NCBI GenBank assembly: GCA_016916535.1
Contig: CP070276.1
Span: forward strand, 2,046,001 to 2,110,000
Direction: 5' to 3'
From: Dysgonomonadaceae bacterium zrk40
GTDB lineage: Bacteria > Bacteroidota > Bacteroidia > Bacteroidales > Dysgonomonadaceae
DNA length: 64,000 nucleotides
Below, in pieces: positions 27,624 through 41,219 of this stretch. The position numbers were made by a program, and so were the translations under genes. The notes below the pieces were generated by a model. The model was not told the origin of the DNA and ran no database searches. It saw only the letters and a program-made list of their open reading frames with translations. Position 1 is the first letter of the stretch. Each line of letters starts with the position of its first letter.

Positions 27624-27649
27624 TATTTCTTTTATTAATGACCTGTAAA

Positions 27650-28705
27650 TTACATCTCACCCGTGGTAGAGATCTTCTCGAAGGCTGAGATATCAACAAC
27701 CATGTCGTAGGAGTACCGGATGAACATCTTCCCGCTCTCATAGCGTGTGAACGGCTCCACCTCCTCGCCTAGCGCCATCTTCACCAACGCCTCGGGATGG
27801 TTCTGCCCGCATCCGTTGGCCAGGTATACCCAGGCCGGAAAACGGGGGTTCATCTCAAGCAAGTAGTACTCATCTTTTTTACTCTTGATAAACTCCAGCT
27901 CACATCCTCCCCGCCAACGGCTCTTCTCTACCAGGCTGCGTGCTGTTTCCAGCAGCTTCTCATCCTCCAATGAGATCCCCGACCAGGCTTTCCCCTTGTC
28001 GGTGATGTAGAGCTTGCGCATCGGTACCGCACCGATGCATCTTCCGTTGCCATCTCCCAGGGCGGTGACGTTCACCTCGGTACCGGCGATGAACTGTTGC
28101 AGAATGACCGGGTAGCCCCACTTGGCCACGATCTTGTAGAAATAGGAACTGGCCTGTTCGAACGAGGAGGCGATCCAGGCATCGTAATAGCGCCCCTTCA
28201 CCACGATGGGATATTCCACCTTCTCCTCCTCCTCCAGTTTTTTCAGTTCCTGGAGCTGGGTGATCATATGGCTCTCCGGAACTTTCACCCCATATTTCTC
28301 GCCGAATTTGTTCAATTCCGATTTCTGTCGCTCTTCGAACGATTCGTGCGTGGGCAGGAAGGAGGCGATGCCCAGCTCCTCCTTCATCCAGCCGGCAATT
28401 TTGATGAAGTTGTGCAGCTCCGCATCGAAGTTGGGGATAATCACGTCGGGTTGCTCCTTCTCCCGGATGTAGCGCAGTCGTTCCTGCAGCATGCCAGTGC
28501 CGCCCGTGGGGAGGGGGAGCTGGTAGACCCTGTGGGCCATCTCCTCCATGTAGATGCCCGGCTCGAGCGTTTCGTAGGAGAGACCGATGATGCGGACGTC
28601 GAAATCACGACTCTCCCGCAGCGCCCGGATCACCGGGATGCCGGGGCCGGGACTGTCGATGTTGTTCAGCCCGGTAACGGCGACGGTGATCTTACGCCTC
28701 TTCAT
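27650..28705 (-). CDS. ATP-grasp ligase (carbamoyl-phosphate-synthase-like fold)
   Basis: 351 residues. An N-terminal Rossmann-like preATP-grasp domain (KITVAVTGLNNIDSPGPGIPVIRAL) precedes the ATP-grasp domain. YPIVVKGRYYDAWIA contains the ATP-binding Lys, and CELEFIKSKKDEYYLLEMNPRFPAWVYL carries the Mg-binding Glu and Asn. Family members ligate a carboxylate to an amine or thiol through an acyl phosphate. The substrate is unknown. The start overlaps the end of the PqqD-like gene by 14 bases, so the two are translationally coupled. It is not CarB: it is a third of the size and has no duplicated half. Confidence 0.87.
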   Translation of the reverse strand: MKRRKITVAVTGLNNIDSPGPGIPVIRALRESRDFDVRIIGLSYETLEPGIYMEEMAHRVYQLPLPTGGTGMLQERLRYIREKEQPDVIIPNFDAELHNFIKIAGWMKEELGIASFLPTHESFEERQKSELNKFGEKYGVKVPESHMITQLQELKKLEEEEKVEYPIVVKGRYYDAWIASSFEQASSYFYKIVAKWGYPVILQQFIAGTEVNVTALGDGNGRCIGAVPMRKLYITDKGKAWSGISLEDEKLLETARSLVEKSRWRGGCELEFIKSKKDEYYLLEMNPRFPAWVYLANGCGQNHPEALVKMALGEEVEPFTRYESGKMFIRYSYDMVVDISAFEKISTTGEM

Positions 28706-28943
28706 ACTCGGTGAGTTGGTAGCTCTTCAGCATGGTGAAGAAGTCGCTGAGATCCATCTCGGCGCTGTTTTTGTCCAGTTCGAACCTCTCACGGAATCTT
28801 TCCATAATCGATTCGGTCTCTTTTCCCTCCTGCAGCATGTGCAGCACAAATAGACCGGTCTCGTTCACGCTGAAGCTATCTCCCGTGAGCGGATTGAATA
28901 TAAAACCGGTCTCGCTGATGGCGATGTTTTTTCTGATCTTCAC
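28692..28943 (-). CDS. PqqD-family protein (peptide-recognition-like)
   Basis: 83 residues. The PqqD fold pattern is visible: a beta-hairpin (IRKNIAISETGFIFNPLTGDSFSVNETG), then LFVLHMLQEGKETESIMERF and a C-terminal helix LSDFFTMLKSYQL. PqqD proteins bind the leader or core of ribosomal peptides and hand them to a modifying enzyme; related small proteins also occur next to ATP-grasp enzymes without any known peptide. It is the first gene of the operon. No obvious precursor peptide ORF lies immediately beside it. Confidence 0.8.
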   Translation of the reverse strand: MKIRKNIAISETGFIFNPLTGDSFSVNETGLFVLHMLQEGKETESIMERFRERFELDKNSAEMDLSDFFTMLKSYQLTEYEEA

Positions 28944-29027: not shown

Positions 29028-29474
29028 TTACTTTTTAACAGGTTCTCTCCGGTCACAGATGCCATTGTTGTTTGCATCTACAAAATTCACCGCTCGTCCC
29101 TTGCCGTTGCGCAGCCCGGCACCATTTCCTGGTCTGCGTCCGGCCCTGCCGCTTTCATAATAGTCGCAGATACCGTTCTCATCTGCATCTACGAAACCGC
29201 GACCTCCCCTGCCGCGACCGTTGCGCATGCCCTTGCCATTGACTCTTCCGCTGCCGTCTAGCAGCCGTCCTTTACCGTTGGCATTGGGATTTCCGGGCGT
29301 CCCCTTCTCAAAGTTGTCGCAGATGCCGTTGTTGTCGTTGTCCACGAACGCTGGCCCATTTTGGGTGGTGGTTTCCTTTTCGGTTTCTACAGGTTCCTGT
29401 GCAGTGGCCAGACCGATGGAAAGCACGACGGCCAATGCTGAAAGAAAAATTTTTGTTTTCATCTTGTTGTTCAT
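29028..29474 (-). CDS. Secreted protein with three EF-hand-like Ca-binding repeats
   Basis: 148 residues from the ATG ending at 29474 (or 144 from 29462, MKTKIFLSALAVVLSIGLATAQ). After the signal peptide come three near-identical units, FVDNDNNGICDNFE, FVDADENGICDYYE and FVDANNNGICDRRE, each with an Asp/Asn-rich calcium-type loop and one Cys. They are separated by Gly/Arg/Asn-rich linkers (GKGMRNGRGRGGRG). It is the last gene of a sigma-factor operon. Metal binding is likely, Ca being the usual ligand for such loops. The function is unknown. Confidence 0.8.
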   Translation of the reverse strand: MNNKMKTKIFLSALAVVLSIGLATAQEPVETEKETTTQNGPAFVDNDNNGICDNFEKGTPGNPNANGKGRLLDGSGRVNGKGMRNGRGRGGRGFVDADENGICDYYESGRAGRRPGNGAGLRNGKGRAVNFVDANNNGICDRREPVKK

Positions 29475-29520
29475 TTTATAGAGTTTGTATGGTTGTTTTA
29501 TCGTTTGAGCCACCAATACT

Positions 29521-30087
29521 TCATTCGCTTCTGCCGTTCCTGCCATAGCGGTGCCGGTATCCTGGAGTAATTGCGGTACTGTCGTTCCAGTTATAACCCC
29601 TGCCCCGGTTCATGGTCCCGTCGCGAAACAGCGGAGTGAATGCCTGTTGTAGTTGTAGGCACTGCGAGGAGTCGCAAAGGGTTCGCAGAGTGAGGTAAAG
29701 ATTATTGGTGATTTTTTTCAGGTCGGCATGGTGGCTCCCTACATGTTCCGAGAGAGTGTTCAGTCGGACTGTATCGGGTAAGGAAGCGTTCAGCTCGGTG
29801 AAAAGTTCATTTTTCAGTGAGTCCATCTCGAAGATCAGCTCGTTTGCCGTGTACTGGAAGTTACGGTGCGCATCCCTGAATTTCTGCATCTGTGCATCAT
29901 TGAAGCCAAGTTGTTGTCTGAAAAATTTTCCCGTGAGGGGATTGGGCTGATCCTCATCCAACACGATGGCAACCTCCTGCTCCTTAGCCATTGCCCGATT
30001 TCTGACAAGGATGGTGCCAATGGTGGAGAGATTGAGAATCACCAGCAAGGCGATGACCCACCATAGAATTTTAGTCGTTCTGTTCAT
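29521..30087 (-). CDS. Membrane-anchored Spy/CnrX-like periplasmic sensor
   Basis: 188 residues from the ATG ending at 30087 (MNRTTKILWWVIALLVILNLSTIG, one N-terminal helix). The periplasmic part is helical: LGFNDAQMQKFRDAHRNFQYTANELI, then LSEHVGSHHADLKKIT. It follows the LTxxQ/CnrX pattern of heavy-metal or envelope stress sensors. The His residues around HRN and SHHADL are in the region where CnrX binds metal. It overlaps the upstream gene by 17 bases. The likely role is to modulate the sigma factor encoded in the operon in response to an extracytoplasmic signal. Confidence 0.75.
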   Translation of the reverse strand: MNRTTKILWWVIALLVILNLSTIGTILVRNRAMAKEQEVAIVLDEDQPNPLTGKFFRQQLGFNDAQMQKFRDAHRNFQYTANELIFEMDSLKNELFTELNASLPDTVRLNTLSEHVGSHHADLKKITNNLYLTLRTLCDSSQCLQLQQAFTPLFRDGTMNRGRGYNWNDSTAITPGYRHRYGRNGRSE

Positions 30088-30421: not shown

Positions 30422-30958
30422 CTACGGACTCTGCAGTTTTTTTCTCAGTTTCTCGTTGGCTCGTTGCAATAGCTGCTCAACCGCGCCCTCCGTGCGGTTC
30501 ATGATGGTTGCGATTTGCTTCTGTGGCAACTCCTCGTAGCGGCTCAGGACGAAAGCCATCCGTTGCTTTTCAGGCAGTGCGTCGATCGCTGCCCGAATCT
30601 CCCGATCCTGCTCTTCACGTTCCAGCATCTCAAGTGGTGTCTTATCACTGCTGCCCCTGTTGAAAATCGTATCGAGCGATTGCAGCAGCCGTTTCTTCTT
30701 GTTTTTGCGGAGTTGGTTGAGCGACATGTTAAGGGTGATCCGGTAAAGCCAGGTGCTGAATGCCGCTTCTCCATGGAAGGTGTGGAGCATTTCGTAGACG
30801 CGGATGAAGACCTCCTGTGTGAGATCTTCCGCATCCTCCTTAGCATGCAGGTACCCCATTACCACACGGAACACCTGCTGCTGATAACGTTCCATCAGGG
30901 TTCTGAAGGCAGTGGAGTTGCCTGATATGATCTCTTTTATGAGTTGTTGGTCCGACAT
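30422..30958 (-). CDS. RNA polymerase sigma-70 factor, ECF subfamily
   Basis: 178 residues from the ATG ending at 30958 (MSDQQLIKEIISGNSTAF). Region 2 contains RYQQQVFRVVMGYLHAKEDAEDLTQEVFIRVY. Region 4 contains LPEKQRMAFVLSRYEELPQKQIATIMNRTEGAVEQLLQRA. A frame extension of 27 codons upstream is unlikely. It heads an operon with a likely anti-sigma factor, a Spy/CnrX-like sensor and the EF-hand-repeat protein, so it probably directs an envelope metal or stress response. Confidence 0.9.
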   Translation of the reverse strand: MSDQQLIKEIISGNSTAFRTLMERYQQQVFRVVMGYLHAKEDAEDLTQEVFIRVYEMLHTFHGEAAFSTWLYRITLNMSLNQLRKNKKKRLLQSLDTIFNRGSSDKTPLEMLEREEQDREIRAAIDALPEKQRMAFVLSRYEELPQKQIATIMNRTEGAVEQLLQRANEKLRKKLQSP

Positions 30959-31141
30959 GCAGTTTGGTTGGCACACTTTTGCTATGTTTGACACGATAGG
31001 AAGCCGATTCCTACGGTAAAGGTATTCTTTTTTTAGCAAGCAGCTATTCCTGCCTGGGAATGATTCGGTTGACTTTGCTCGTCATTGCCGGTTAGATTTG
31101 CCAGATGAGTATCTCATCTAGAAATAGCGTTACACTAAAAA

Positions 31142-31357: not shown

Positions 31358-32391
31358 ACGTGAGTTCGGGATAAGAAAAGCATAAAAAAAGTTGTGATAT
31401 AGGGAGATTATTTGTATATTTATAGCTGATAATCAAACAAATAACAAACATCAGCCCTATGATCACAACAGACAAAGTTATTGAAATATTTTGTATTGCC
31501 GACGATTTTTGTGCAGAATATGAGAATGAAATTCAGAATCATCAACTTCAAGCCGGGGGTACAACTAAAAGGAGAAACAGGAAAACGCAAATGTCCCAGA
31601 GCGAGATTATTGCCGTGATGGTCTGTTTCCACTGCGGAACCTTCCATAATTTCAAGAATTATTACCTGTTTTATATTTGCAAACACATGAAGAGCTATTT
31701 TCCAAATGCCGTTTCCTACAACCGTTTTGTCGAGTTGCAACCCAGGGTGATTGTACCTTTCATGCTCTTGCTCAAACTCTTTGGATTTGGTGAATGCACA
31801 GGCATTACATATGTGGATAGCACTCCCATTAAAGTATGTCATAACAAGCGTATACACTCGAATAAAGTATTCAGGGATCTGGCACAAAGAGGGAAAAGTA
31901 CGATGGGCTGGTTTTTTGGATTCAAGCTTCATCTGGTCTGTAACGAAAAGGGTGAATTGCTGAATTTCTCTCTCACAAAAGGCAATGTCGACGATAGAAA
32001 CCCTGACGTAATCAATGTTCTTACCAAAGATCTTTTCGGTAAACTATATGCAGACAAGGGTTACATCAGCACAAAGCTCTTCGAGATGCTGTTTGACCAG
32101 GGTGTTCATTTAGTGACCGGTATACGCTCAAATATGAAAAATTCCCTGATGTCATTCCGCGACAAGATTCTCTTACGCAAAAGATCTGTAATTGAGTCCA
32201 TCAATGATGAACTGAAGAATATCTGCCAGATAGAACATTCAAGGCATCGTTCCACACATAATTTCATCATGAACATAATTGCTGCATTGGTGGCATATTG
32301 TTTCTTTCCCAAAAAGCCTTCAATCAAATTTGAAGTGGAAAAGTCAAGTCAATTAACCATTTGGGGATAATATGTTATCCCGAACTCACGT
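31358..32391 (+). mobile_element. Complete IS982-family insertion sequence
   Basis: About 1.03 kb, bounded by perfect terminal inverted repeats AACGTGAGTTCGGGATAA (31357-31374) and its complement (32375-32392), one transposase gene inside. A possible 5-base direct repeat TTTTA flanks the element if the ends are set at 31358 and 32391; IS982 duplications are usually a little longer, so this is tentative. It inserted 14 bases past the stop of the QmoC-like gene. With intact ends and transposase it may still be active. Confidence 0.85.
31459..32370 (+). CDS. IS982-family transposase
   Basis: 303 residues, full length for the family. It is a DDE enzyme: Asp in TYVDSTPIKVCHNKRIH, Asp in LYADKGYIS and Glu in KRSVIESINDELKN. 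The N-terminal MSQSEIIAVMVCFHCGTFHNFKNYY and STMGWFFGFKLHLVCNEKGE are typical IS982 stretches. No frameshift is present. It lies between the inverted repeats described for the element. Confidence 0.93.
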   Translation: MITTDKVIEIFCIADDFCAEYENEIQNHQLQAGGTTKRRNRKTQMSQSEIIAVMVCFHCGTFHNFKNYYLFYICKHMKSYFPNAVSYNRFVELQPRVIVPFMLLLKLFGFGECTGITYVDSTPIKVCHNKRIHSNKVFRDLAQRGKSTMGWFFGFKLHLVCNEKGELLNFSLTKGNVDDRNPDVINVLTKDLFGKLYADKGYISTKLFEMLFDQGVHLVTGIRSNMKNSLMSFRDKILLRKRSVIESINDELKNICQIEHSRHRSTHNFIMNIIAALVAYCFFPKKPSIKFEVEKSSQLTIWG

Positions 32392-32405: not shown

Positions 32406-33467
32406 TCAGGATTGCTGCAGACTCCTGATCTTCGTGAAATAGTGTGCGAAGGAACGGTAGAGGAAATGGGTCCACTTACCGAAAGGCACGATGATCAGTG
32501 CCCACTGAGCAAGTATGGTGAGGTGGAGGATGTGCATCCAGATATTGCTTTCGAGCAGCTGAAGGTCGATGAAGAGGCGCACCAGGAAGGCGGTCAGTCC
32601 CATCATCAGCAGCCAGATTACGAAGAACCAGTCGGAGGGTTGAGAGAACTTGTTCAACGACTTGTTCTTTTTGATCCTTCCGGAGACGAAATGGATGGTG
32701 ATCACGAATACCAGCAGACTCTCCAGGTAACCCAACAGGATCACGAAGAGATGCTCTGTGCCAAACCAGTTTAGAAAGACCGTGGTGAAGAGCAGCGACA
32801 GGTAGGCGAATACCAGTACCATGTGTTCCAGCCAGCGGAAGTTGTCCTCTTCGTCGCAATCTTTGGCCCTTTTCTGGGTGAACATGTTTACGAAAAGTTC
32901 GGTGAGTGCCGTGAAATAGCTCTTCAGCGGAACCTTCACCTTCTGCTTCACGATTGTGAAATACCACATCCGTAAAAGGTTTGGCACGAAGATCACCAGG
33001 AAGACGGTTGCGATGGCCATCATCTCGAAGAGGTGTCCCGCATGGATCAATCTCTCAGCATCAAAGCCTGTGGAGCGGGCGAAGAAGAAAACACCTGCGG
33101 CTACCAGCAGCAGTGCCATGATGGTGAAGGGTAGAGAACGGTAGAGCAGTCCCGAGAGACCGGTCCAGTCATACTTGGCGGTGAGCCAGCGCCGCAGCGA
33201 CATCATCAGCTCACCCGGGTTGGCAGTCTGCGGACACTGCGCGGTGCACTCGCCGCAATAGTAGCACTCCCAGGGCTTAAGCGACTGCTTCAGTTCATCC
33301 TCCAATCCCAGTGCACTGAGCCGCACCATCTCACGCGGAAAGGATTGGTCTGGGGTGGATAGTGAGCAGACAGCTGTGCAGTTACCACAGTTGTAACATG
33401 CATTGAAATTGACGGAACCGTACTTCTTCAGCTCCTCCGCGAAACGGGGATTTATTTTACTTGCCAT
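32406..33467 (-). CDS. QmoC-like quinone-interacting membrane oxidoreductase subunit
   Basis: 353 residues. The N-terminal HdrC-like ferredoxin part has two 4Fe-4S motifs, CYNCGNCTAVC (C24, C27, C30, C34) and CYYCGECTAQCP (C68, C71, C74, C78). Six membrane helices of the cytochrome b/NarI type follow (ILLGYLESLLVFVITIHF and others). This fusion is that of QmoC, which passes electrons between menaquinol and soluble HdrA-type flavoproteins. The ATG overlaps the stop of the upstream small gene by one base (TAATG). It is the last gene of the sulfur operon. Confidence 0.85.
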   Translation of the reverse strand: MASKINPRFAEELKKYGSVNFNACYNCGNCTAVCSLSTPDQSFPREMVRLSALGLEDELKQSLKPWECYYCGECTAQCPQTANPGELMMSLRRWLTAKYDWTGLSGLLYRSLPFTIMALLLVAAGVFFFARSTGFDAERLIHAGHLFEMMAIATVFLVIFVPNLLRMWYFTIVKQKVKVPLKSYFTALTELFVNMFTQKRAKDCDEEDNFRWLEHMVLVFAYLSLLFTTVFLNWFGTEHLFVILLGYLESLLVFVITIHFVSGRIKKNKSLNKFSQPSDWFFVIWLLMMGLTAFLVRLFIDLQLLESNIWMHILHLTILAQWALIIVPFGKWTHFLYRSFAHYFTKIRSLQQS

Positions 33468-33745
33468 TATTTTACCAGTTTATACGAATAGTATTCGTCC
33501 ATGTCGTCGATCTCGCCGGTGGCTACCACCCCATATTTCACCAGGGTGAGCAGGTAGTATGTCGCTTCGTGGAGGGGCATCTGCAGTCGTTCAGCGAGCT
33601 GCGCGATGGTGAGCTCCTCCTGCTCCAGTGCACCGGTGATTGCCCGTTTGATCCGGTTGAACTCTTTCAGCTCCTCTTTCACCCGTTTAGGGACACCCTG
33701 TTTCTCCCGCAGGTAGCGGGATGTTTTTCCTTTTTCTACTTCCAT
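33467..33745 (-). CDS. Small winged-helix-like protein of unknown function
   Basis: 92 residues from the ATG ending at 33745. It is basic at the start (MEVEKGKTSRYLREKQGVPKRVKEELKEF). A winged-helix-like core follows, ITGALEQEELTIAQLAERLQMPLHEATYYLLTLVKYGVV, and an acidic hairpin DDMDEYY. There are no cysteines. It lies 4 bases after the HdrA-like gene and is coupled to the QmoC gene, so it is part of the operon. It could be a local regulator or an assembly/structural subunit; nothing in the sequence decides. Confidence 0.7.
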   Translation of the reverse strand: MEVEKGKTSRYLREKQGVPKRVKEELKEFNRIKRAITGALEQEELTIAQLAERLQMPLHEATYYLLTLVKYGVVATGEIDDMDEYYSYKLVK

Positions 33746-33749
33746 ACTC

Positions 33750-35474
33750 TTATACCAATGCGTCAATCATACTCATTATCTCTTCACTCGAATAGTTGAT
33801 CAGGTTGATGGCGTCTGGCGGACATACCGGGGTGCACATGCCGCATCCCTTGCAGACTGAATTGTTGACTGCAGCCACCATTTTGCCGCCCACCTCCTGC
33901 TGCAGGATGGCATCGAAGGGACAAGCCTCGGCACACTTCCCGCACCAGCTGCAGGTGTCGCTGTTCACCTCCGCCACGATTGGCTCTGTTTCGAGTGTAC
34001 CCTTGCTGATCAGCGAGTAGGACTTAGTTGCTGCCGAGAGGGCCGAGTTGACCGATTCGGTGATGTTCTTCGGGCCCTGACAACTGCCGGCGATGGTGAC
34101 CCCGTCGATCACAGTCTCCACCGGACGCAGCTTCATATGGACCTCGTTGAAGAAGTGGTCTCTTCCCTTGGGTAACTTGAAGAGAGTTCCCACCTTGTTG
34201 TCGGCGCGCGGCACCATACCGGTTACCAGCACCACCAGGTCGGCTTCGAGCTCCAGCTCGCGGTTGGCCGAGAGGATATCACGCAGGGTGATTGTTGTCT
34301 TCTTCCCTTCCGTTACTACTGCCGGTGGGGTCTCCTCTGCCCATTGCAGATACAGATCGCCCAGCGCCAGCGACTCGGCATAGAGCAGCTCCTGCTTGCC
34401 GTAGGTGCGGATGCCGCGGTTAAGGTGGTAGTTGCTGATCTTCCGAAATCTCTTTTTTGCCAGGATGGAGGCATGGATGGCCGAGGTGCAGCAAAAGCGG
34501 GAACAGTAGGTGTTCTCCCCGTTGGTCTGACGGCTGCCCACACAGTAGATGTAAGCGATGTTGCGAATTTTCCTCCCTTTGTAGATAAGTTCTTTCCCTT
34601 CGGCATGGTCAATCAGGTGACGGAAATCAGGTAGCGTGATCACGTTGTCGCTCTGTGCAAAGCCAAACTCACCCTCCTTGGGCTGGTAGGAGTCGAAGCC
34701 GGTGGCTACCACTACCGAACCCACGGTGAACTCGGCGGTTTCTACCGGATCACCCTCCTTCAGTGGCCGCTTGCGCACCTTGAGGGTGAAGTTACCGATG
34801 CTTCCCTTGGAGGTGATTACCTCCGTACCGGTCATGATGGTCACATTCTCCCGTTGCAACAGGTCGTTGTAGATCCGCTCCGAGAGTGCACTCCCGCTCT
34901 CTTCGCTCATCGCCAGGGGACCCCAGGTGGCGGTATGTCCCCCCACGCGATGCTCCTTCTCGATCAACAGCACCTCCGTCCCTTTGTCCGCCAGGGCGGC
35001 TGCCGCCTTCATCCCGGCGATGCCGGCGCCGATCACTGCGATGGATTTCTCGGCTTCGAACAGGTTTGGGTGGAGCGGCTCAGCGTATCGTGACTTGGCG
35101 ATGGCGGCTTTCACCAGTCGGATCGCCTTGTCGGTAGCACCCTCCTTGTCGTCGGAGTGCGCCCAGGAGGCCTGTTCGCGGATGTTGGTGTGTACGTAGG
35201 TATACTTGTTCAGATCACCCCGCTCCGTCACGTTTCTGAAGGTGGTGAGGTGGAGCTTCGGGGAGCAGGAGGCCACGATTACCCCGTCGAGGTTGTGGGT
35301 GTGAATGTCCTCCACCATGTCGTTCTGGTTGGCGTCGGAGCAAGCGAAGACCGTTGTCTTGGCCATCGCTACCCCTGTTTCATGTTCCACTGCCTGACGC
35401 ACCTTCTCCACATCGACATAATCGGATATGTTGCCGCCGCAATGGCAGATGTAGACACCTATTCTCTCTTTCAT
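33750..35474 (-). CDS. HdrA/QmoB-like FAD iron-sulfur oxidoreductase
   Basis: 574 residues. The HdrA N-terminal region is GVYICHCGGNISDYVDVEKV, with FACSDANQNDMVEDI and ASCSPKLHLTTFRN. An FAD-binding fold follows near residue 145 (VIGAGIAGMKAAAALADKG). A C-terminal two-cluster ferredoxin module contains CSWCGKCAEACP and CKGCGMCTPVCP. In Hdr and Qmo complexes this subunit bifurcates or relays electrons between ferredoxin-like centres and FAD. It is 6 bases from the QmoA-like gene. Confidence 0.88.
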   Translation of the reverse strand: MKERIGVYICHCGGNISDYVDVEKVRQAVEHETGVAMAKTTVFACSDANQNDMVEDIHTHNLDGVIVASCSPKLHLTTFRNVTERGDLNKYTYVHTNIREQASWAHSDDKEGATDKAIRLVKAAIAKSRYAEPLHPNLFEAEKSIAVIGAGIAGMKAAAALADKGTEVLLIEKEHRVGGHTATWGPLAMSEESGSALSERIYNDLLQRENVTIMTGTEVITSKGSIGNFTLKVRKRPLKEGDPVETAEFTVGSVVVATGFDSYQPKEGEFGFAQSDNVITLPDFRHLIDHAEGKELIYKGRKIRNIAYIYCVGSRQTNGENTYCSRFCCTSAIHASILAKKRFRKISNYHLNRGIRTYGKQELLYAESLALGDLYLQWAEETPPAVVTEGKKTTITLRDILSANRELELEADLVVLVTGMVPRADNKVGTLFKLPKGRDHFFNEVHMKLRPVETVIDGVTIAGSCQGPKNITESVNSALSAATKSYSLISKGTLETEPIVAEVNSDTCSWCGKCAEACPFDAILQQEVGGKMVAAVNNSVCKGCGMCTPVCPPDAINLINYSSEEIMSMIDALV

Positions 35475-35480
35475 AATCGT

Positions 35481-36788
35481 TTATGCTTCCTGGTGCTGTT
35501 TGATGTAACTGATTGCTTCTGATGATGCTGAGCCTGCCGAGAGGATTGAATCGGGAATATCCATCGGGGCGGCAGCGGTGCCGGCCACGAAGACTCCGTC
35601 GATGCTGGTCTTGGCTGGGCTGCCCATCAGGTCGGTCTGGGCCACAAAGCGCTGGGGATCGAGCTTCAGTGTTCCCTGCGGGAAGATCTTCCCCGCATCG
35701 GGGTTCGATTTCACCCCTACCGAGAGCACCACCATGTCGTGCTCCGCCTCCTTGACCACCCCCTCGCTAATATCCTCATATCGCAGGATCAGGTTGCCGT
35801 TCTCTTTCTCACTGATGGTGCCGATCTTGCCCTTCACGAACGAGACACCCATTCCCTTGGCCTGCTGGTAAAACTCCTCAAAACCCTTCCCGAAAGAACG
35901 GATGTTGATGTAGTAGATGGTGACATCTGCCATGGGCAGGGCACCCATAAGCAACTGTGCCTGCTTGATGGAATACATGCAGCATATCTGCGAGCAGATG
36001 GGGTTGCCCACCGAGGCATCGCGTGATCCGGCGCAGAGCACGTAGGCGATCTTGTCGGGTACCTTGCCGTCGCCCGGTCGTAAGATGGTGTTGAAGGGAC
36101 GAGTGGGGGCGATCTCTCGCTCCATCTGCATGGAGGTGATCACGTTCTTGTGCTGTCCATACCCGTAGCGTGGTATCTCCAGCGGATCGAAGAGTTTGAA
36201 GCCGGTTGCCATCACCACAGTGCGGGCATGCAATTCGAACTGCTCCGGCTTCATGGTGAAGTCGATACAGTTGGTGGGGCACACCTTCTCGCAAGCACCG
36301 CAGAGCGTGCAGTTCTCGATGTCGATGGCTGCTGCCTTGGGGTTGGCGATGCTGAAGGGGATGAACGCTGCTTTTCTGCCAATGAGCCCCTCTTGGTACT
36401 CATCGCGCACACTTACCGGGCAGGCCTGTTCACAGAGCTGACAGGCAGTGCAATCCTCCACGTGCACGTATCGCGGTTTTTTTGTGATCTGCGCCACGAA
36501 ATCGTTTTCCGATCGTTTGTCAATGGCGGTCACCTCACTCTCGGTGAAGATGGTGATGTTCTTGTGGCGGGCGATCTCCGACACCTTGGGTGTGGTGATG
36601 CAGGCGGAACAGTCGAGGGTGGGGAATACCTTGCTCAGCAGGATCATCTTGCCCCCCAGGGAACGTTCTTTTTCCACCAGCAACACCCTGTAACCGGTGT
36701 TGGCCAGGTTGAGCGCAGCCTCGCCGCCGGCGATGCCGCCCCCTACCACCAGGGCATCGTAGTGAATGATCTTCTTCTCTTCGTTCAT
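35481..36788 (-). CDS. HdrA/QmoA-like FAD iron-sulfur oxidoreductase
   Basis: 435 residues. FAD motif VVGGGIAGGEAALNLANTGY is at 14-33. The Hdr-type Cys segment DCSACITTPKVSEIA is at about 59-73. Two 4Fe-4S sites follow: C113, C116, C119, C123 and C160, C163, C166, C170. The C-terminal GVFVAGTAAAPMDIPDSILSAGSA closes the FAD fold. It is the second flavoprotein of a Qmo-like pair. A long open frame on the opposite strand is a shadow of this gene. 6 bases separate it from the MvhD-like gene. Confidence 0.88.
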   Translation of the reverse strand: MNEEKKIIHYDALVVGGGIAGGEAALNLANTGYRVLLVEKERSLGGKMILLSKVFPTLDCSACITTPKVSEIARHKNITIFTESEVTAIDKRSENDFVAQITKKPRYVHVEDCTACQLCEQACPVSVRDEYQEGLIGRKAAFIPFSIANPKAAAIDIENCTLCGACEKVCPTNCIDFTMKPEQFELHARTVVMATGFKLFDPLEIPRYGYGQHKNVITSMQMEREIAPTRPFNTILRPGDGKVPDKIAYVLCAGSRDASVGNPICSQICCMYSIKQAQLLMGALPMADVTIYYINIRSFGKGFEEFYQQAKGMGVSFVKGKIGTISEKENGNLILRYEDISEGVVKEAEHDMVVLSVGVKSNPDAGKIFPQGTLKLDPQRFVAQTDLMGSPAKTSIDGVFVAGTAAAPMDIPDSILSAGSASSEAISYIKQHQEA

Positions 36789-36794
36789 CAGAAT

Positions 36795-37190
36795 TTATGT
36801 GTGGATTGTTTTGATCAGGTATTCGTTGAAGCTGCGTATCTGCTTCACGAACGCTTCACTGCATACGGAACAGATGGCAGCCATGCGCAGACGGGCGGGG
36901 TCGAGGTTTTGTGCCTTCATCCGCTCGTGTGTATCGCCCACCAGGTTGCCCGTCTTTTCCGTGCAACTCTCTCCATAGACACAGTCGCTGCCGTCGGCCG
37001 CGATGAACACCCCGTCGAACCCTCGTTCGTAGGCATGCAGGATCCAGCTGGGCTTGATGCCGCTGGAACAGGGAACCGTGATGGTGTAGACCGTTGGCGG
37101 GTAATGGAGCTTCAGCAACCCCGCCATGTCGATGGCGGGATCGGAGATTTTTTCCGTCGAAAAAACCAGTATCCTGGCACTTTTTTTCAT
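36795..37190 (-). CDS. MvhD-like hydrogenase iron-sulfur subunit
   Basis: 131 residues. The family is recognisable from ILVFSTEK, VPCSSGIKPSWILHAYERGFDGVFIA, GSDCVYGESC and AICSVCSEAF. Five cysteines (C41, C70, C76, C107, C110) can hold the 2Fe-2S/4Fe-4S centre. In methanogens MvhD passes electrons from hydrogenase to HdrA; here no hydrogenase is near, so it more likely links another redox partner to the HdrA-like pair. It is 13 bases after tusA. Confidence 0.85.
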   Translation of the reverse strand: MKKSARILVFSTEKISDPAIDMAGLLKLHYPPTVYTITVPCSSGIKPSWILHAYERGFDGVFIAADGSDCVYGESCTEKTGNLVGDTHERMKAQNLDPARLRMAAICSVCSEAFVKQIRSFNEYLIKTIHT

Positions 37191-37203
37191 CGTTGCTGGA
37201 AAC

Positions 37204-37455
37204 TTATTTCTTCTTCATGTATACCTTGAAGTAGCCGTTCTCCTCCACGGCGCCGAGGTACTCGTGTCCCTGCTTCTTGCACCACTTGGGGATGTCTGAT
37301 TTGGTACCCTCGTCGGCCGAGAGAATCTCCATCACGTCGTCCGTGCCGATAGTGCCGATTGCTTTCTTCGCTTCGAGGAGCGGTCCCGGGCAGGCTGTGC
37401 CCCTTGCATCTACTGATTTAGCCACTGTCAGGGCTCTTAATTCTTCTGTTGTCAT
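37204..37455 (-). CDS. tusA: TusA-family sulfur carrier protein
   Basis: 83 residues. The CPxP motif, Cys22 in DARGTACPGPLLEAKKAI, carries persulfide sulfur in this family. DVMEILSADEGTKSDIPKWCKKQGHEYLG is the typical two-layer fold. Its place directly between DsrE-like and MvhD/Hdr genes argues for sulfur trafficking in energy metabolism rather than tRNA thiolation. Confidence 0.9.
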   Translation of the reverse strand: MTTEELRALTVAKSVDARGTACPGPLLEAKKAIGTIGTDDVMEILSADEGTKSDIPKWCKKQGHEYLGAVEENGYFKVYMKKK

Positions 37456-37503
37456 TGTTTTAATTATTTAGGTGTGAATAAATTTTATTTCAATTTTGTA
37501 ACG

Positions 37504-38070
37504 TTAGATGAACCATTGCATGCTGCTCTCGCCGGCATCTGCCACAAAGGTGGTGGCTCCGGCATAGCGCAGGTGCGGGTAGTCGATGATCTCCTCCTTC
37601 TTGAATCCCATCAGGTTCATCGACATCTCGCAGACGGTGATCTCAATGCCCAGGTCGGCGGCTTCCTTAAACATCTCATCGAGTGACATTACATTCTGCT
37701 GTTTCATCAGCCGCTTGATCATCACCGGTCCCATGCCGCACATATTCATGTTGGAGAGCTTCAGCTTGTTGCGCCCGTTGGGTAGCATCATGCCGAACAT
37801 TTTTGAAATGAAATCTTTACCCTTCGCCTTCTTTTTAGGATCGCGCAATGCGGAGAGTGCCCAGAAGGAGAAGAAGAGCTTCACCTCTGAATCCATTGCT
37901 GCGGCGGCCAGTGAGATGATCATCGCGGCCAGGATCTTGTCCATGTCGCCCGACACGATGGCGATCGAGAGCTGGTCTTTCCGTGCTTCCTCAATGTCGG
38001 AGGTTTTAGCCTTGAGCTTCTCCAACTCTTGCTGGAGCAGTTCCATTGAAAGGGGAGTTGATTTTTCCAT
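37504..38070 (-). CDS. DsrE/DsrF-like (DsrE2-type) sulfurtransferase
   Basis: 188 residues. The core DQLSIAIVSGDMDKILAAMIISLAAAAMDSEVKLFFSFWAL matches the DsrE2 branch, with conserved Cys147 in IEITVCEMSMNLMG and a second Cys111 in NMNMCGMGP. A helical N-terminal extension of about 30 residues precedes it. In sulfur oxidisers DsrE2 and TusA exchange sulfane sulfur. It is the first gene of the seven-gene operon, divergent from a Crp/Fnr gene. Confidence 0.87.
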   Translation of the reverse strand: MEKSTPLSMELLQQELEKLKAKTSDIEEARKDQLSIAIVSGDMDKILAAMIISLAAAAMDSEVKLFFSFWALSALRDPKKKAKGKDFISKMFGMMLPNGRNKLKLSNMNMCGMGPVMIKRLMKQQNVMSLDEMFKEAADLGIEITVCEMSMNLMGFKKEEIIDYPHLRYAGATTFVADAGESSMQWFI

Positions 38071-38165: not shown

Positions 38166-38199
38166 TTTGTGCGATATATCACATCTTTCCCTATCTTTG
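38166..38199 (+). promoter_or_regulatory. Promoter of the first Crp/Fnr regulator gene
   Basis: TTTG at 38166-38169 and TATCTTTG at 38192-38199, spacing 22. The -33 part overlaps the palindrome at 38168-38183. Confidence 0.6.
38168..38183. promoter_or_regulatory. CRP-like operator palindrome
   Basis: TGTGCGATATATCACA matches TGTGA-N6-TCACA in nine of the ten fixed positions. It lies between the divergent DsrE operon and the Crp/Fnr gene. The regulator's recognition helix has RESINR, matching the RExxxR pattern by which CRP reads this motif, so autoregulation and control of the sulfur operon are both plausible. Confidence 0.55.
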
Positions 38200-38270
38200 C
38201 AGGGTTAGCAGGTTAACCGGGTGAATGCCACATGTTTCTTCGGAAGACTACACATAAAAGTATAGCAGCA

Positions 38271-38948
38271 ATGAAAAATGAATGTATCGATTGCGACTGT
38301 GTCCTGAAATCATCCGTTCAGATGAAGGATTGTCAGCTGGAGCTGCTGGGTGGCAGCCATGCAGTGGTTAAATTCAAAAAAGGAGATACCATCATCCGGC
38401 AAGGTGTCTTCTCCACCAATGTGGTATTCCTGCGCAAGGGGATGGCCAAGGTTCATCTCACCGGCCCTTCCCGCGAGCAGATCGTGAAGCTGGTGAAGGC
38501 TCCCACCTACCTGGGACTACCCACTACCTTTGGTGACAAGATCAACCAGTACAGCGTTACGGCTGTGGTGGAGTCGGAGGTTTGTTTCATCGATATCGAG
38601 GTGTTCAAAAAGCTGTTGGCCGAGAATCCAGACTTTTCTGCCTACATACTTATGGAGTTATGCAAGAGCGAGTTGGAGGCATACCACCGTTGTGCCGGTC
38701 GTACGCAAAAGCAGCTCAGGGGCAACCTGGCCGATGTGCTGCTGGAGTTTTCCGAACGGCTGTTCGAATCGGACCGCTTCCTGCTTCCCCTCTCCCAGTC
38801 GGATATCGGCAACTGGGTGGATGCCGGCAGGGAGAGTATCAACCGTGCGCTTTCGGAGTTCATCGCCGACGGCATCATCCAGATGGATGGTAAGCAGGTG
38901 ACCATCACCGACAAGAAACTACTGCAGTTAATCAGTCAAAACGGATGA
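38271..38948 (+). CDS. Crp/Fnr-family regulator with FNR-like cysteines
   Basis: 225 residues from the ATG at 38271. The cNMP-binding-like beta roll spans about 25-115. The HTH follows (LSQSDIGNWVDAGRESINRALSEFIADGII). Cysteines C5, C8, C10 and C21 at the N-terminus, and C105 at the end of the beta roll (ESEVCFIDIE), align in position with the iron-sulfur ligands of FNR. The HTH reads RESINR, closer to CRP (RExxxR) than to FNR (ExxSR). It probably senses redox state, oxygen or NO and controls the neighbouring operon. Confidence 0.85.
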   Translation: MKNECIDCDCVLKSSVQMKDCQLELLGGSHAVVKFKKGDTIIRQGVFSTNVVFLRKGMAKVHLTGPSREQIVKLVKAPTYLGLPTTFGDKINQYSVTAVVESEVCFIDIEVFKKLLAENPDFSAYILMELCKSELEAYHRCAGRTQKQLRGNLADVLLEFSERLFESDRFLLPLSQSDIGNWVDAGRESINRALSEFIADGIIQMDGKQVTITDKKLLQLISQNG

Positions 38949-38987: not shown

Positions 38988-39680
38988 TTATCCCAGTCTT
39001 TCAATCTTCTCCAATTCTGTTTTGTTGAGAATGGTGATTCCTTTCCCCTCAAGGGCGATGATCCCATCCCGTTCAAACTCCTTGAGCAATTTGATGGCGC
39101 TTTCGGTGGCTACCGATGCAAAGTTCGCCAGATCCTGGCGCGACAGGTATTGAAACAGGTTTTGCTCACTGAAATTTTCTCCACTCAGGTAGAGCAGTGT
39201 GGATGCCAACTTCCCTCTCATCTGCTTGTAGGTCATGTTCGCAATTATGGTGAGGAGTTGTCGCTCGTTGCGGTAGTTGCGGGAGGTGATGCGCATTGCA
39301 AATTGGGCATTGTTGAGCAAGATATTGCGCATCTGCTCCTTGTCGATCATGCATACCTCCGTGTCGGTAAGTGCAACGGCAGAGGTGGCATGCAGCGTCT
39401 CGCCGAAGAGAGAAGCGAAGCCCAGAAAGTCTCCTGTCTGCGCCAGCTGCAGATTCAGTTGCTTCTCCCGTCCGGTCTGAAGGTAAACCTTGACCAGTCC
39501 CCTGGTAATCAGTAACAGGTGCGTCGAGAAAGCACCCTGTTTGAAAAGGTTCTCACCAGCCAGGTAGGTCAGCTCAGTCTTACCACTGTTGATCTGTTCC
39601 AACTCTTGCGTCGTGAGGTCACGGAAGCAGGCAACCAACTTTCCGCAGTTGTCCGGTTCATTTATGTTCCTACCATTCAT
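38988..39680 (-). CDS. Second Crp/Fnr-family transcriptional regulator
   Basis: 230 residues from the ATG ending at 39680. Beta-roll domain (YLAGENLFKQGAFSTHLLLITRGLVKVYL) and HTH (LSRQDLANFASVATESAIKLLKEFERDGII). It has three cysteines at similar places to FNR ligands (C12, C18, C110), but one too few for a full FNR cluster unless another ligand helps. It is convergent with the first regulator and divergent from the thioredoxin gene, with an FNR-type box in the shared upstream region. Confidence 0.86.
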   Translation of the reverse strand: MNGRNINEPDNCGKLVACFRDLTTQELEQINSGKTELTYLAGENLFKQGAFSTHLLLITRGLVKVYLQTGREKQLNLQLAQTGDFLGFASLFGETLHATSAVALTDTEVCMIDKEQMRNILLNNAQFAMRITSRNYRNERQLLTIIANMTYKQMRGKLASTLLYLSGENFSEQNLFQYLSRQDLANFASVATESAIKLLKEFERDGIIALEGKGITILNKTELEKIERLG

Positions 39681-39699
39681 AGGATTGTTGTTTGATCTC

Positions 39700-39707
39700 C
39701 AAAGATA
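39700..39707 (-). promoter_or_regulatory. Candidate -7 box of the second Crp/Fnr gene
   Basis: Reads TATCTTTG on the minus strand, 20 bases from the ATG at 39680. Confidence 0.5.
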
Positions 39708-39744
39708 CAACTTTTCATGTAACTGTTCTCCATCATGCGGGAAA

Positions 39745-39758
39745 CTGATGCATATCAA
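39745..39758. promoter_or_regulatory. FNR-type box between crp/fnr and thioredoxin genes
   Basis: CTGATGCATATCAA matches TTGAT-N4-ATCAA at nine of ten positions. It is centred about 58 bases upstream of the predicted start of the regulator gene and about 76 bases from that of the thioredoxin gene. Confidence 0.5.
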
Positions 39759-39813
39759 CTTTACAGGCGGTATCTCTCATCCTCTCAGTCGTCGGAGGAG
39801 CAACTATTGCCGT

Positions 39814-39821
39814 TACCTTTG
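39814..39821 (+). promoter_or_regulatory. Candidate -7 box of the thioredoxin/reductase pair
   Basis: TACCTTTG, about 38 bases upstream of the ATG at 39860; no clear -33 box, which fits an activator-dependent promoter. Confidence 0.5.
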
Positions 39822-39859
39822 CACCCGGAAACAAAAGAACAATTTAAAGACGAAACAAA

Positions 39860-40207
39860 ATGAATTATTTACGGACCAATATCCAGGAGGTTGAAACAGC
39901 AGATGAACTGCAGAAGATCATCAACGAGAATGAAAATGTAATGGTGTGTTGTGGACGGATGGGCCCCATGTGTATCCCTGTCTATGAGATCATGGAAGAG
40001 CTCGAGGAGGAGTACGAAAATGTGAAGTTCTATTCTATGGGCTTTGACAATCCCGAATCGGTTGTGATTCGCAGTGCACCCGAGTGCCGTGGATTCATGG
40101 GACTCCCCTTCACCATGTACTACAAGAACGGTCAGGTAGCCAAGGCAACCACCAGCATCCAGAATATGACGCAGGTGAAAGAGAACCTTGATAACCACCT
40201 TGCTTGA
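39860..40207 (+). CDS. Atypical thioredoxin-like protein
   Basis: 115 residues with a thioredoxin-like layout, including cis-proline P83 in GFMGLPFTMYY. The canonical WCGPC is replaced by VCCGRMGPMCIP, with C30, C31 and C38, and a further C76 in APECRG. The redox pair is therefore C30 or C31 with C38, spaced by six or more residues, or a pair involving C76. It is transcribed with the reductase gene 85 bases downstream. Function as the reductase's partner is inferred from position. It is probably redox active, but not a standard thioredoxin. Confidence 0.8.
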   Translation: MNYLRTNIQEVETADELQKIINENENVMVCCGRMGPMCIPVYEIMEELEEEYENVKFYSMGFDNPESVVIRSAPECRGFMGLPFTMYYKNGQVAKATTSIQNMTQVKENLDNHLA

Positions 40208-40292
40208 GGAATAACGATAATAGTGGAGGCAGTACTTGCCTCAGGTGAAAATCAATGCCGGAGTCATCCGGAGAATGGAATAGAGAAACAAA

Positions 40293-41219
40293 ATGGACAA
40301 GATATTTGATGTGATGATTTTGGGTGCAGGCGCTGCCGGGCTAACTGCGGGGATTTATACTTCCCGCGGTAAGCTCGACACGCTGATCCTGAGCGAAGGT
40401 GTCACCGGGGGACAGATGGTGCTGACCAACGAGATTGCCAACTATCCCGGTGTGGATACCATCAAGGGGTATGAACTCTCCGCCATCATGAAGCGGCAGG
40501 CGAAGAACTTCGGTTGCACCATGAAGGCCAATGTGAAGATAAGCAAATACCGGCTCAGCGACGAGGTGAAATCGGTTGAACTGGAAGATGGCAGGATGTT
40601 CCGTGCCAAAGCTGTGATCCTGACTCCCGGCGGCAGACCAAGATCGCTCGACATCCCAGGTGAGAAGGAGTTTGAAGGAAGGGGCATTTCCTACTGTGCC
40701 ACCTGCGATGCAGACTTCTTCCGGGACAAGCGGTTGGTGGTGGTTGGAGGCGGTAACTCTGCCCTGGAAGAGGCGGTCACCCTGACTCACTTTGCATCAC
40801 ATGTCACCATCGTCCACCAGTTCGAACATTTCCAGGCTTTTGCCCATGCGGTGGAAGAGGCGGAAAAGAATCCGAAGATCAGCTTCATCATGGAATCGGA
40901 GCTGAGAGCCTATATTGGAGGAGAACAACTGGAAAAGGTAATGATTGAGAACCTGAAAACAGGAGAGATGCGGGAACTCGAAACTGACGGGGTCTTCGTA
41001 TTCATCGGTTACCAGCCCAACACTGAAGCCTTCAACGGACTGATTGAGATCAACGAACGGGGTGAGTTCCCGGTTGACCAGGCGATGAAAACGAATCTTC
41101 CGGGTGTATTTGCAGCCGGCGACTGTATTGCGAAACGCTACCGGCAGGTTACAACCTCTGTGAGTGACGGTACCATTGCGGCTCTCAGTGCCATCGAATA
41201 TATCCGTACCGGGAAATAA
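40293..41219 (+). CDS. trxB: Thioredoxin reductase-like flavoprotein, altered cofactor motif
   Basis: 308 residues. FAD motif GAGAAGLTAG at 11-20, redox CATC (C135, C138), GGGNSALEEA at 152-161 and C-terminal GVFAAGDCIAKRYRQ. The NADPH-specific HRRxxxR is replaced by HQFEHFQ at 175-181, so binding of the 2'-phosphate is unlikely. The natural donor may be NADH or a reduced ferredoxin/flavin protein. It should reduce the unusual thioredoxin encoded upstream. Confidence 0.88.
   Translation: MDKIFDVMILGAGAAGLTAGIYTSRGKLDTLILSEGVTGGQMVLTNEIANYPGVDTIKGYELSAIMKRQAKNFGCTMKANVKISKYRLSDEVKSVELEDGRMFRAKAVILTPGGRPRSLDIPGEKEFEGRGISYCATCDADFFRDKRLVVVGGGNSALEEAVTLTHFASHVTIVHQFEHFQAFAHAVEEAEKNPKISFIMESELRAYIGGEQLEKVMIENLKTGEMRELETDGVFVFIGYQPNTEAFNGLIEINERGEFPVDQAMKTNLPGVFAAGDCIAKRYRQVTTSVSDGTIAALSAIEYIRTGK

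Follow-up and report, generated by a model that had tools for sequence, protein, structure and literature searches.

A Bacteroidales operon that may exchange electrons between TusA-bound sulfur and menaquinone through a Qmo-like complex

What would a set of sulfur carriers, encoded together with HdrA-type flavoproteins and a QmoC-like membrane protein, do in an anaerobic Bacteroidales bacterium? The question is raised by an operon in a 64,000-nucleotide stretch of the genome of Dysgonomonadaceae bacterium zrk40 (contig CP070276.1, positions 2,046,001 to 2,110,000; hereafter the window), whose genes encode, in order, a DsrE2-like sulfurtransferase, the sulfur carrier TusA, an MvhD-like subunit, two HdrA-like flavoproteins (HdrAa and HdrAb), a winged-helix (wHTH) protein and a QmoC-like subunit. 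The answer that we favour, and to which we give about an even chance, is that the operon encodes a membrane-anchored, Qmo-like electron-transfer complex of HdrA type, which would pass electrons among menaquinone, a partner (nucleotide or ferredoxin) and the sulfane sulfur carried by TusA, mostly in the reductive direction. Within this model, we are more confident of the link between TusA and the complex than of the reductive direction.

Conservation of the operon and exchange of its central block

The original prediction of seven tightly packed genes was borne out: all seven open reading frames (ORFs) lie where it had placed them, co-directional on the minus strand from 38070 to 32406, and 48, 13, 6 and 6 bp separate the first five in turn. 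The winged-helix gene probably starts at ATG 33745, 4 bp from HdrAb; the frames of its relatives mostly begin at or near the matching position, and 1 bp is shared between the gene's stop and the start of the QmoC-like gene. A scan of named genomes for the QmoC-like protein yielded 168 confirmed relatives, of which the best 80 provide the locus counts given here; by their titles, all 80 belong to Bacteroidota or a group within Bacteroidota. The order DsrE2-TusA-MvhD-HdrAa-HdrAb-wHTH-QmoC recurs in Bacteroidales loci as far as the contigs extend, which is more than chance. DsrE2, TusA, MvhD, HdrAa, HdrAb and QmoC are all full length, by our length cut-offs, in 56 of the 80 loci; contig ends truncate many of the rest, and a few carry a different DsrE or show no DsrE within reach. 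While Petrimonas had been suggested as a fitting relative, the nearest named relative among these 80 is a Proteiniphilum metagenome-assembled genome (locus L002; 91–99% identity across the seven proteins), and Petrimonas sp. IBARAKI carries another, longer variant of the operon.

In the window and the loci passing the length cut-off, key cysteines and four QmoC histidines do not vary among the aligned copies. The TusA protein matches PF01206 with its CPxP cysteine in place, and this residue, Cys22, is present in all 64 aligned copies; the five MvhD cysteines are kept in 67 of 67. In DsrE2, Cys147 is found in 58 of 58 copies, whereas Cys111, present in 20 of them, is not invariant. The QmoC-like protein, with a 4Fe-4S pair detected by Pfam, keeps eight cysteines and four histidines (H145, H215, H315 and H334) in 80 of 80 sequences, and the histidines are presumed to be b-haem ligands. 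Intact cysteine motifs had been claimed for every gene; this holds with the exception of the winged-helix protein, which has no cysteine.

The operon exists in two forms. In 22 of the 80 loci HdrAa is of a long type (745–967 amino acids, aa), and all 22 also have an HdrAb fused to the winged-helix domain; one further locus (L077) has the fusion without the HdrAa insert. The one long HdrAa that was scanned (L006) contains Fer4_20 and Pyr_redox_2 (156 bits), which we take to be the make-up of GltD/NfnB-type enzymes using nicotinamide nucleotides, NAD(P)H. The long variant thus likely carries a GltD-like NAD(P)H module, which makes a nucleotide partner likely there.

Comparison of the two forms suggests that the operon is built from parts with different histories. 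Across 56 complete loci (19 of the long type) and the window, with the winged-helix protein outside the test, the identity matrices of TusA, MvhD, HdrAa and HdrAb correlate with one another at 0.88–0.96, and with those of DsrE2 and QmoC at 0.29–0.56. The long-type locus L006 is 84% identical to the window in DsrE2 and 80% in QmoC, with 63, 55, 61 and 50% in TusA, MvhD, HdrAa and HdrAb; for the short-type locus L009 the corresponding values are 87 and 79%, and 93, 84, 88 and 77%. In the HdrAb tree, the long type forms one clade (Shimodaira–Hasegawa-like approximate likelihood-ratio test, SH-aLRT, 96.8) and needs one change. It needs six changes in the QmoC tree, at least five of them forced by strong branches, and six in the DsrE2 tree, at least three of them forced; a single clade is rejected by the approximately unbiased (AU) test in both (p 0.042, a borderline value, and p 1.3e-7, respectively). 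The long-type label had been set by HdrAa length before the trees were made, but after the identity pattern was visible. Apparently, the TusA-MvhD-HdrA-HdrA block has moved between operons on several occasions, while their DsrE2 and QmoC stayed in place. TusA co-varies with the flavoproteins, as expected of a direct docking partner.

Distribution of the operon is patchy. A QmoC match at E ≤1e-30 was found in 83 of 393 genomes of an order-level sample, own genome included (45 at ≥550 bits), and in 5 of 392 genomes of a phylum-level sample, where only the own genome exceeds 310 bits; bit score alone does not separate operon types, as a 508-bit match in genome G663 belongs to a hydrogenase-linked operon (L113). 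Within the family, 32 of 101 genomes have a QmoC match, with carriers and non-carriers in one genus. Of the 33 QmoC matches in the family, 25 have a TusA match no more than 8 kb away on their contig, among them one genome with TusA in two pieces (G841) and one with a partial QmoC (G871); the other eight (G866, G834, G852, G863, G872, G853, G888 and one copy of G878) include several at contig ends. The operon TusA is read in two pieces at L019 5020–5245 and on contig C101 of G841 at 5246–5429, through either mutation or assembly error. On contig C118 of G871 (86626–86892) only the first quarter of a QmoC-like protein matches, with TusA nearby, possibly a decayed operon. A plasmid search for named HdrA relatives returned two records and nothing informative.

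The subunits and their relation to known systems

The two HdrA-like proteins appear to divide the features of one HdrA between them. Both contain FAD (flavin adenine dinucleotide) and 4Fe-4S domains by Pfam, and the best PDB matches of both are HdrA from methanogen-type complexes. HdrAa aligns with methanogen-type HdrA from the FAD domain to just before the C-terminal ferredoxin, without the N- and C-terminal domains of HdrA; HdrAb aligns with the N-terminal domain, the FAD domain and the C-terminal ferredoxin, and lacks the inserted ferredoxin. In other loci HdrAb has about 643 aa, and the one scanned (L040) gives a weak 4Fe-4S match in the inserted stretch. QmoB carries an MvhD-type module at its C-terminus. 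In layout, HdrAa looks like QmoA, and HdrAb together with the separate MvhD looks like a QmoB split in two. No further HdrAa- or HdrAb-like place was found in the own genome at E 1e-5.

A phylogeny against QmoABC, proposed originally as a check, gave a divided answer. In a FastTree of 61 rows, a quick method with long branches in play and no type II Qmo sequences included, QmoA and QmoB of three Sat-AprBA-QmoABC reference loci (order named by eye) group together (0.999), while HdrAb stands apart from QmoB, with the second HdrA (HdrA2) of hydrogenase-linked operons (0.950); the placement of HdrAa relative to Qmo has a support of only 0.556. Passages of two studies place HdrA Lys409 beside N5 of FAD in a solved structure and give it a role in electron bifurcation (PMC10734219, PMC6405883). 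HdrAa keeps a lysine at this position in 71 of 73 rows, the other two (L026, L036) being truncated HdrAb rows. Since QmoA and QmoB both keep this lysine, its presence in HdrAa is no proof of bifurcation. The position holds His in the window HdrAb, and His, Tyr, Gln or Ala in HdrAb-type rows; by its sequence, HdrAb is the odd flavoprotein, marked by the lost Lys409.

QmoC and DsrE2 are names given by homology, not equivalog calls, because both score below the respective NCBIfam cut-offs: the QmoC-like protein reaches 136 bits against 300 for NF038018 (135 bits in a genome-wide search, in which 13 of 395 phylum genomes pass the cut-off), and DsrE2 reaches 62 bits against 210, while passing PF13686. 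The original QmoC naming therefore stands as a statement of homology and falls as an equivalog assignment. QmoC-like proteins also occur in a different context: HdrA-QmoC-HdrA-MvhD operons with [NiFe] hydrogenase subunits were found by Pfam in L104 (1227–8871) and L113 (599–8234), both in genomes of the order Bacteroidales, and by eye in L103, where the order-level search places a QmoC. The L113 QmoC is 52% identical to that of the window, so that QmoC looks like a reused quinone adaptor, and the hydrogenase operons might be hydrogen-linked sisters of the sulfur-linked complex. A distant operon from another family (L106) encodes, in order, TusA, MvhD, HdrAa, HdrAb, a wHTH-like protein (25% identity, no Pfam match), QmoC and DsrE.

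Among the carriers, TusA has a single match in the own genome, that of the operon, in a genome profile search (11 of 14 control genomes positive). In two loci, an extra DsrE protein of 122 aa precedes DsrE2 (L110 5051–5419, by Pfam; L111 13340–13708); some operons may thus have a sulfur-loading step with two DsrE proteins. Many family genomes free of the operon have a TusA domain within an ORF of ~815 aa, a different fusion (for example G522 C1:2352868-2353077).

The winged-helix protein is encoded by a separate gene in 52 of the 80 loci and forms the C-terminal domain of HdrAb (>650 aa) in 25, with the remaining 3 cut by contig ends; the fusion was found by blastp in 24 loci and by tblastn, at the same place, in the 25th (L043). 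For the window protein, AlphaFold predicts a wHTH with confidence (mean predicted local distance difference test score, pLDDT, 87.9), and in a model of the fused HdrAb the same elements appear at residues 674–733, behind a stretch (615–671) with pLDDT below 50. A DNA-binding repressor of the operon would be the conventional reading of such a gene; Foldseek indeed finds MarR- and ArsR-type repressors closest, and Pfam gives a weak IclR HTH match. We consider this role quite improbable, as fusion to HdrAb behind a low-confidence stretch argues for structural or docking function (with which DNA binding would still be compatible), the protein lacks cysteine, and the promoter already has its own Crp/Fnr gene, accompanied by a conserved palindrome. 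The protein is probably a subunit of the complex rather than a regulator.

With these features, the operon resembles several described systems without matching any of them. It shares with the QmoABC of sulfate reducers and Chlorobia two HdrA-type flavoproteins, an MvhD-type module and a QmoC with a 4Fe-4S pair and membrane domain. It differs in that MvhD is separate, HdrAb stands apart from QmoB and lacks the Lys409 kept by QmoA and QmoB, and TusA and DsrE2 take the place that Sat-AprBA (assigned by eye) has in QmoABC loci. QmoABC proper (type I) was rejected on the NF038018 score, the position of HdrAb off the QmoA and QmoB clade, and the absence of AprAB by eye among the window frames at 26–45 kb (a genome-wide search for AprAB was not made). 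A type II QmoAB(C), uncharacterised, is described in passages of Neukirchen et al. 2023 (PMC10504309) as HdrA-like QmoA/QmoB with QmoC, also outside Dsr/Apr organisms. In layout and HdrA-likeness our operon resembles this description and may belong to the group; the passages contain no TusA, wHTH subunit, NAD(P)H variant or Bacteroidales.

Other candidates were rejected on the content of the genome (3.47 Mb, 99.9% complete), with 14 genomes as positive controls. No match was found genome-wide for the CCG/HdrB domain (PF02754; controls 12/14), NIR_SIR (PF01077; 11/14), molybdopterin oxidoreductase (PF00384; 11/14) or the YeeE/YedE family (Sulf_transp, PF04143; only 6/14). The sulfur-oxidising Hdr-like system sHdr, given in part of its description as hdrC1B1A-hyp-hdrC2B2 with LbpA (PMC6067878), likewise has TusA and DsrE carriers clustered with an HdrA-like protein, whereas our operon has a quinone module and no lipoate-binding protein among its seven products (a genome-wide search was not made), and sHdr sulfur oxidation was rejected for the absence of PF02754. 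HdrA and MvhD recall HdrABC-MvhAGD, but the operon has no HdrB or hydrogenase, and its two HdrA-like proteins each keep a different part of HdrA; without a CCG domain in the genome, an HdrABC heterodisulfide reductase lacks its non-cubane cluster protein, HdrB. Dsr, Psr and Phs respiration was rejected because PF01077 and PF00384 are absent. The YTD cluster of sulfur disproportionators also places tusA beside a dsrE-type gene, and the part of its description available to us does not have the HdrA, MvhD and QmoC of our operon (PMC12998232); it was rejected for want of a PF04143 match, a family detected in fewer than half of the controls. The originally claimed absence of HdrB and DsrAB thus extends to the whole genome for CCG and NIR_SIR, and that of hydrogenase applies to the operon only, the genome not having been searched for it.

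Regulator, coordinates and neighbouring genes

A Crp/Fnr-family gene diverges from the operon in 46 of 53 loci (those with at least 1.5 kb upstream and a DsrE2 of at least 150 aa), and its Cys18, Cys21 and Cys118, counted from 38232, are present in 47 of 47 sequences, window included. This CxxC motif with a distant cysteine recalls Fnr; against Fnr models, the regulator reaches 50 of 300 bits at best, far below the cut-offs. Between regulator and operon, a palindrome of the form TGTGATnnnnATCACA matches at 12 of 12 positions in 24 of the 47 loci, at 11 in 13, at 10 in 9 and at 9 in 1, while Markov shuffles lead one to expect, per 47, 0 at 12, 0.13 at 11 and 1.8 at 10; the loci are related and do not count as independent cases. 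The window palindrome scores 10 of 12. We presume it to be a Crp/Fnr operator.

Table 1 Coordinates of the operon and its presumed control region in the window
Feature	Position	Strand	Match or note
DsrE2-like sulfurtransferase, 188 aa	37504..38070	-	PF13686 DrsE_2 149.5 bits
TusA sulfur carrier, 83 aa, CPGP motif at Cys22	37204..37455	-	PF01206 79 bits
MvhD/FlpD-like iron-sulfur subunit, 131 aa, five cysteines	36795..37190	-	PF02662 FlpD 91.4 bits
HdrAa, HdrA-like flavoprotein, 435 aa, FAD and inserted ferredoxin domain	35481..36788	-	Pfam/PDB matches
HdrAb, HdrA-like flavoprotein, 574 aa, HdrA N-terminal domain, FAD, C-terminal 2x[4Fe-4S]	33750..35474	-	
Winged-helix (wHTH) protein, 92 aa from likely ATG 33745	33467..33766	-	
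QmoC-like membrane subunit, 353 aa, two [4Fe-4S] motifs, four invariant His	32406..33467	-	NF038018 136 bits
Palindrome TGTGCGATATATCACA, presumed Crp/Fnr operator	38168..38183	.	between regulator and operon
Divergent Crp/Fnr-family regulator, likely start at internal ATG 38271	38232..38948	+	

On the regulator side, the region 38988–41219 encodes a second Crp-family protein, a 115 aa thioredoxin-like protein (CCGRMGPMC) and a thioredoxin-reductase-like flavoprotein; L111 has a similar thioredoxin-like/reductase-like pair ~5.4 kb from its operon. At the other end, an insertion sequence (IS) element at 31360–32389, which encodes a DDE transposase (PF13612, 252 bits) and shows terminal inverted repeats by eye, ends 16 bp past the QmoC-like stop. 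The QmoC-like gene looks whole nonetheless, because its C-terminus ends as in the nearest relative. Farther away, a PqqD-like chaperone, an ATP-grasp enzyme and a pyridoxal-phosphate decarboxylase follow in series (26268–28943), resembling a small peptide or natural-product pathway, and a 172 aa protein with three FVDxDxNGICDxxE-like repeats (29028–29546; no family above its cut-off) lies near an ECF-sigma-like gene (30422–31039), both noted by eye.

Proposed function, rival explanations and implications

In the complex that we propose, DsrE2 would load or unload TusA, and persulfidated TusA would be the sulfur-carrying substrate, taking the place of AprAB, the partner of true Qmo. HdrAa would correspond to QmoA, and HdrAb with MvhD to the split QmoB; the winged-helix protein would belong to HdrAb as a subunit or docking element. 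NAD(P)H or ferredoxin may feed electrons in at MvhD in the window form, or at the GltD-like module in the long form; the QmoC-like subunit would connect, via two [4Fe-4S] clusters and b haems, to the menaquinone pool as the second partner. Net flow would be mostly reductive, from the sulfane sulfur of elemental sulfur or polysulfide to sulfide, and might be coupled to energy conservation. Standard potentials are about −320 mV for NADH, −270 mV for S0/sulfide and −75 mV for menaquinone, so sulfide release would be downhill from NAD(P)H or ferredoxin and uphill from menaquinol alone, which makes a scheme with two partners attractive. The original suggestion, that carrier-bound sulfane sulfur is reduced or oxidised against menaquinone by a system that is neither classical Hdr nor Dsr, agrees with the results and is strengthened by the absence of CCG, NIR_SIR and molybdopterin domains and by the co-variation of TusA with the HdrA/MvhD block. 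A more specific possibility, which we regard as unlikely, is that HdrAa splits or joins electrons among TusA-persulfide at middle, menaquinone at high and ferredoxin or NAD(P)H at low potential, with HdrAb a plain relay.

Evidence from cultured relatives bears on the direction. Petrimonas sp. IBARAKI, whose locus L027 corresponds to genome G844 by coordinates, has a long-type operon and no molybdopterin oxidoreductase; according to part of one report, it derived from sulfide-black colonies, and Petrimonas sulfuriphila, with 99% 16S identity, reduces elemental sulfur to H2S (PMC5940944). Several observations weigh against the proposed complex. For IBARAKI, operon and sulfide are correlated in a single organism, and the sulfide could come from sulfur-reducing routes outside our searches, for example SudAB or NAD(P)H sulfur oxidoreductase. 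A molybdopterin oxidoreductase occurs in 16 of 101 family genomes, including 8 of the 32 with a QmoC match. The first gene varies between operons (DsrE2, another DsrE, or a DsrE at the far end), so that DsrE2 itself is not essential to the layout. Small TusA proteins are not confined to carriers, with an ORF of 76–113 aa in six genomes without a QmoC match (G817, G827, G832, G833, G836, G887). The three trees behind the block exchange are quick ones without bootstrap, the AU value for QmoC being borderline. Lacking a non-cubane HdrB site or another known sulfur-active site, the complex offers no place to which S-S cleavage can be assigned.

The same complex could run oxidatively, with sulfide or TusA-persulfide oxidised, electrons passed to menaquinone and fumarate as the likely final acceptor. 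Oxidation of sulfide to sulfane sulfur with menaquinone is downhill by the standard potentials, the QmoC-like quinone module suits it, and TusA and DsrE-type carriers occur in sulfur-oxidising Hdr-like clusters, as passages on the latter describe (PMC6067878). Since the genome has no CCG or NIR_SIR domain, the operon no lipoate-binding gene, and a near relative is reported, in the part of that source cited above, to reduce sulfur (PMC5940944), we hold this direction to be improbable. A role in persulfide homeostasis or biosynthesis seems less probable still: TusA and DsrE2 would serve sulfur transfer for tRNA, cofactors or detoxification, and the HdrA complex would keep the carrier reduced. 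TusA is a general carrier in many bacteria, it is the sole TusA of this genome, and the six genomes just mentioned have a small TusA without QmoC. The patchy operon (32 of 101 family genomes) speaks against such a role, as do near-complete non-carriers of the same genus such as G847, G851 and G868, which have no TusA match either; TusA is thus not a household gene there, and is unlikely to be one in the family. The co-variation of TusA with the HdrA block points the same way, and a set of seven conserved genes that includes a quinone module and has a dedicated regulator would be an expensive one for housekeeping. We similarly think it rather doubtful that HdrA-MvhD-QmoC serves another purpose, such as electron transfer from ferredoxin or NAD(P)H to menaquinone, with the sulfur genes only maturing or repairing the complex. 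The hydrogenase operons L104 and L113, with no sulfur genes in the stretch read, indicate that the core can work without TusA, and the long variant brings an NAD(P)H module of its own; however, TusA lies inside the co-varying block with its cysteine kept in 64 of 64 copies, and the distant L106 operon keeps TusA, a wHTH-like gene and DsrE with HdrAa, HdrAb and QmoC.

In the open-access literature that we searched, a description of the operon was not found, including under QmoC with TusA, DsrE2 and HdrA, Petrimonas sulfur reduction with Hdr, and HdrA-QmoC-hydrogenase in Bacteroidetes; the same holds for a link to a sulfur carrier, a winged-helix subunit, a variant with an NAD(P)H module and an exchanged cassette. 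The sulfur-reductase families that we searched for are missing here, and the molybdopterin ones also in IBARAKI, though part of a report has its close kin reducing sulfur (PMC5940944). If the proposed Qmo-like complex is real, the operon would name genes for this sulfur reduction, and type II Qmo would gain a testable substrate, TusA-persulfide instead of AprAB. It would also be a case of cassette exchange within an operon, separating core from adaptor subunits. Should electron splitting occur as well, it would represent a sulfur respiration that needs neither molybdenum nor non-cubane clusters, put together from a mobile TusA-MvhD-HdrA-HdrA-wHTH cassette set between a sulfur loader and a quinone adaptor that stay in place, with a winged-helix domain that has gone over from DNA binding to service as an enzyme subunit. 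The operon may thus give anaerobic Bacteroidales a little-studied route for electron exchange between sulfur and the quinone pool.

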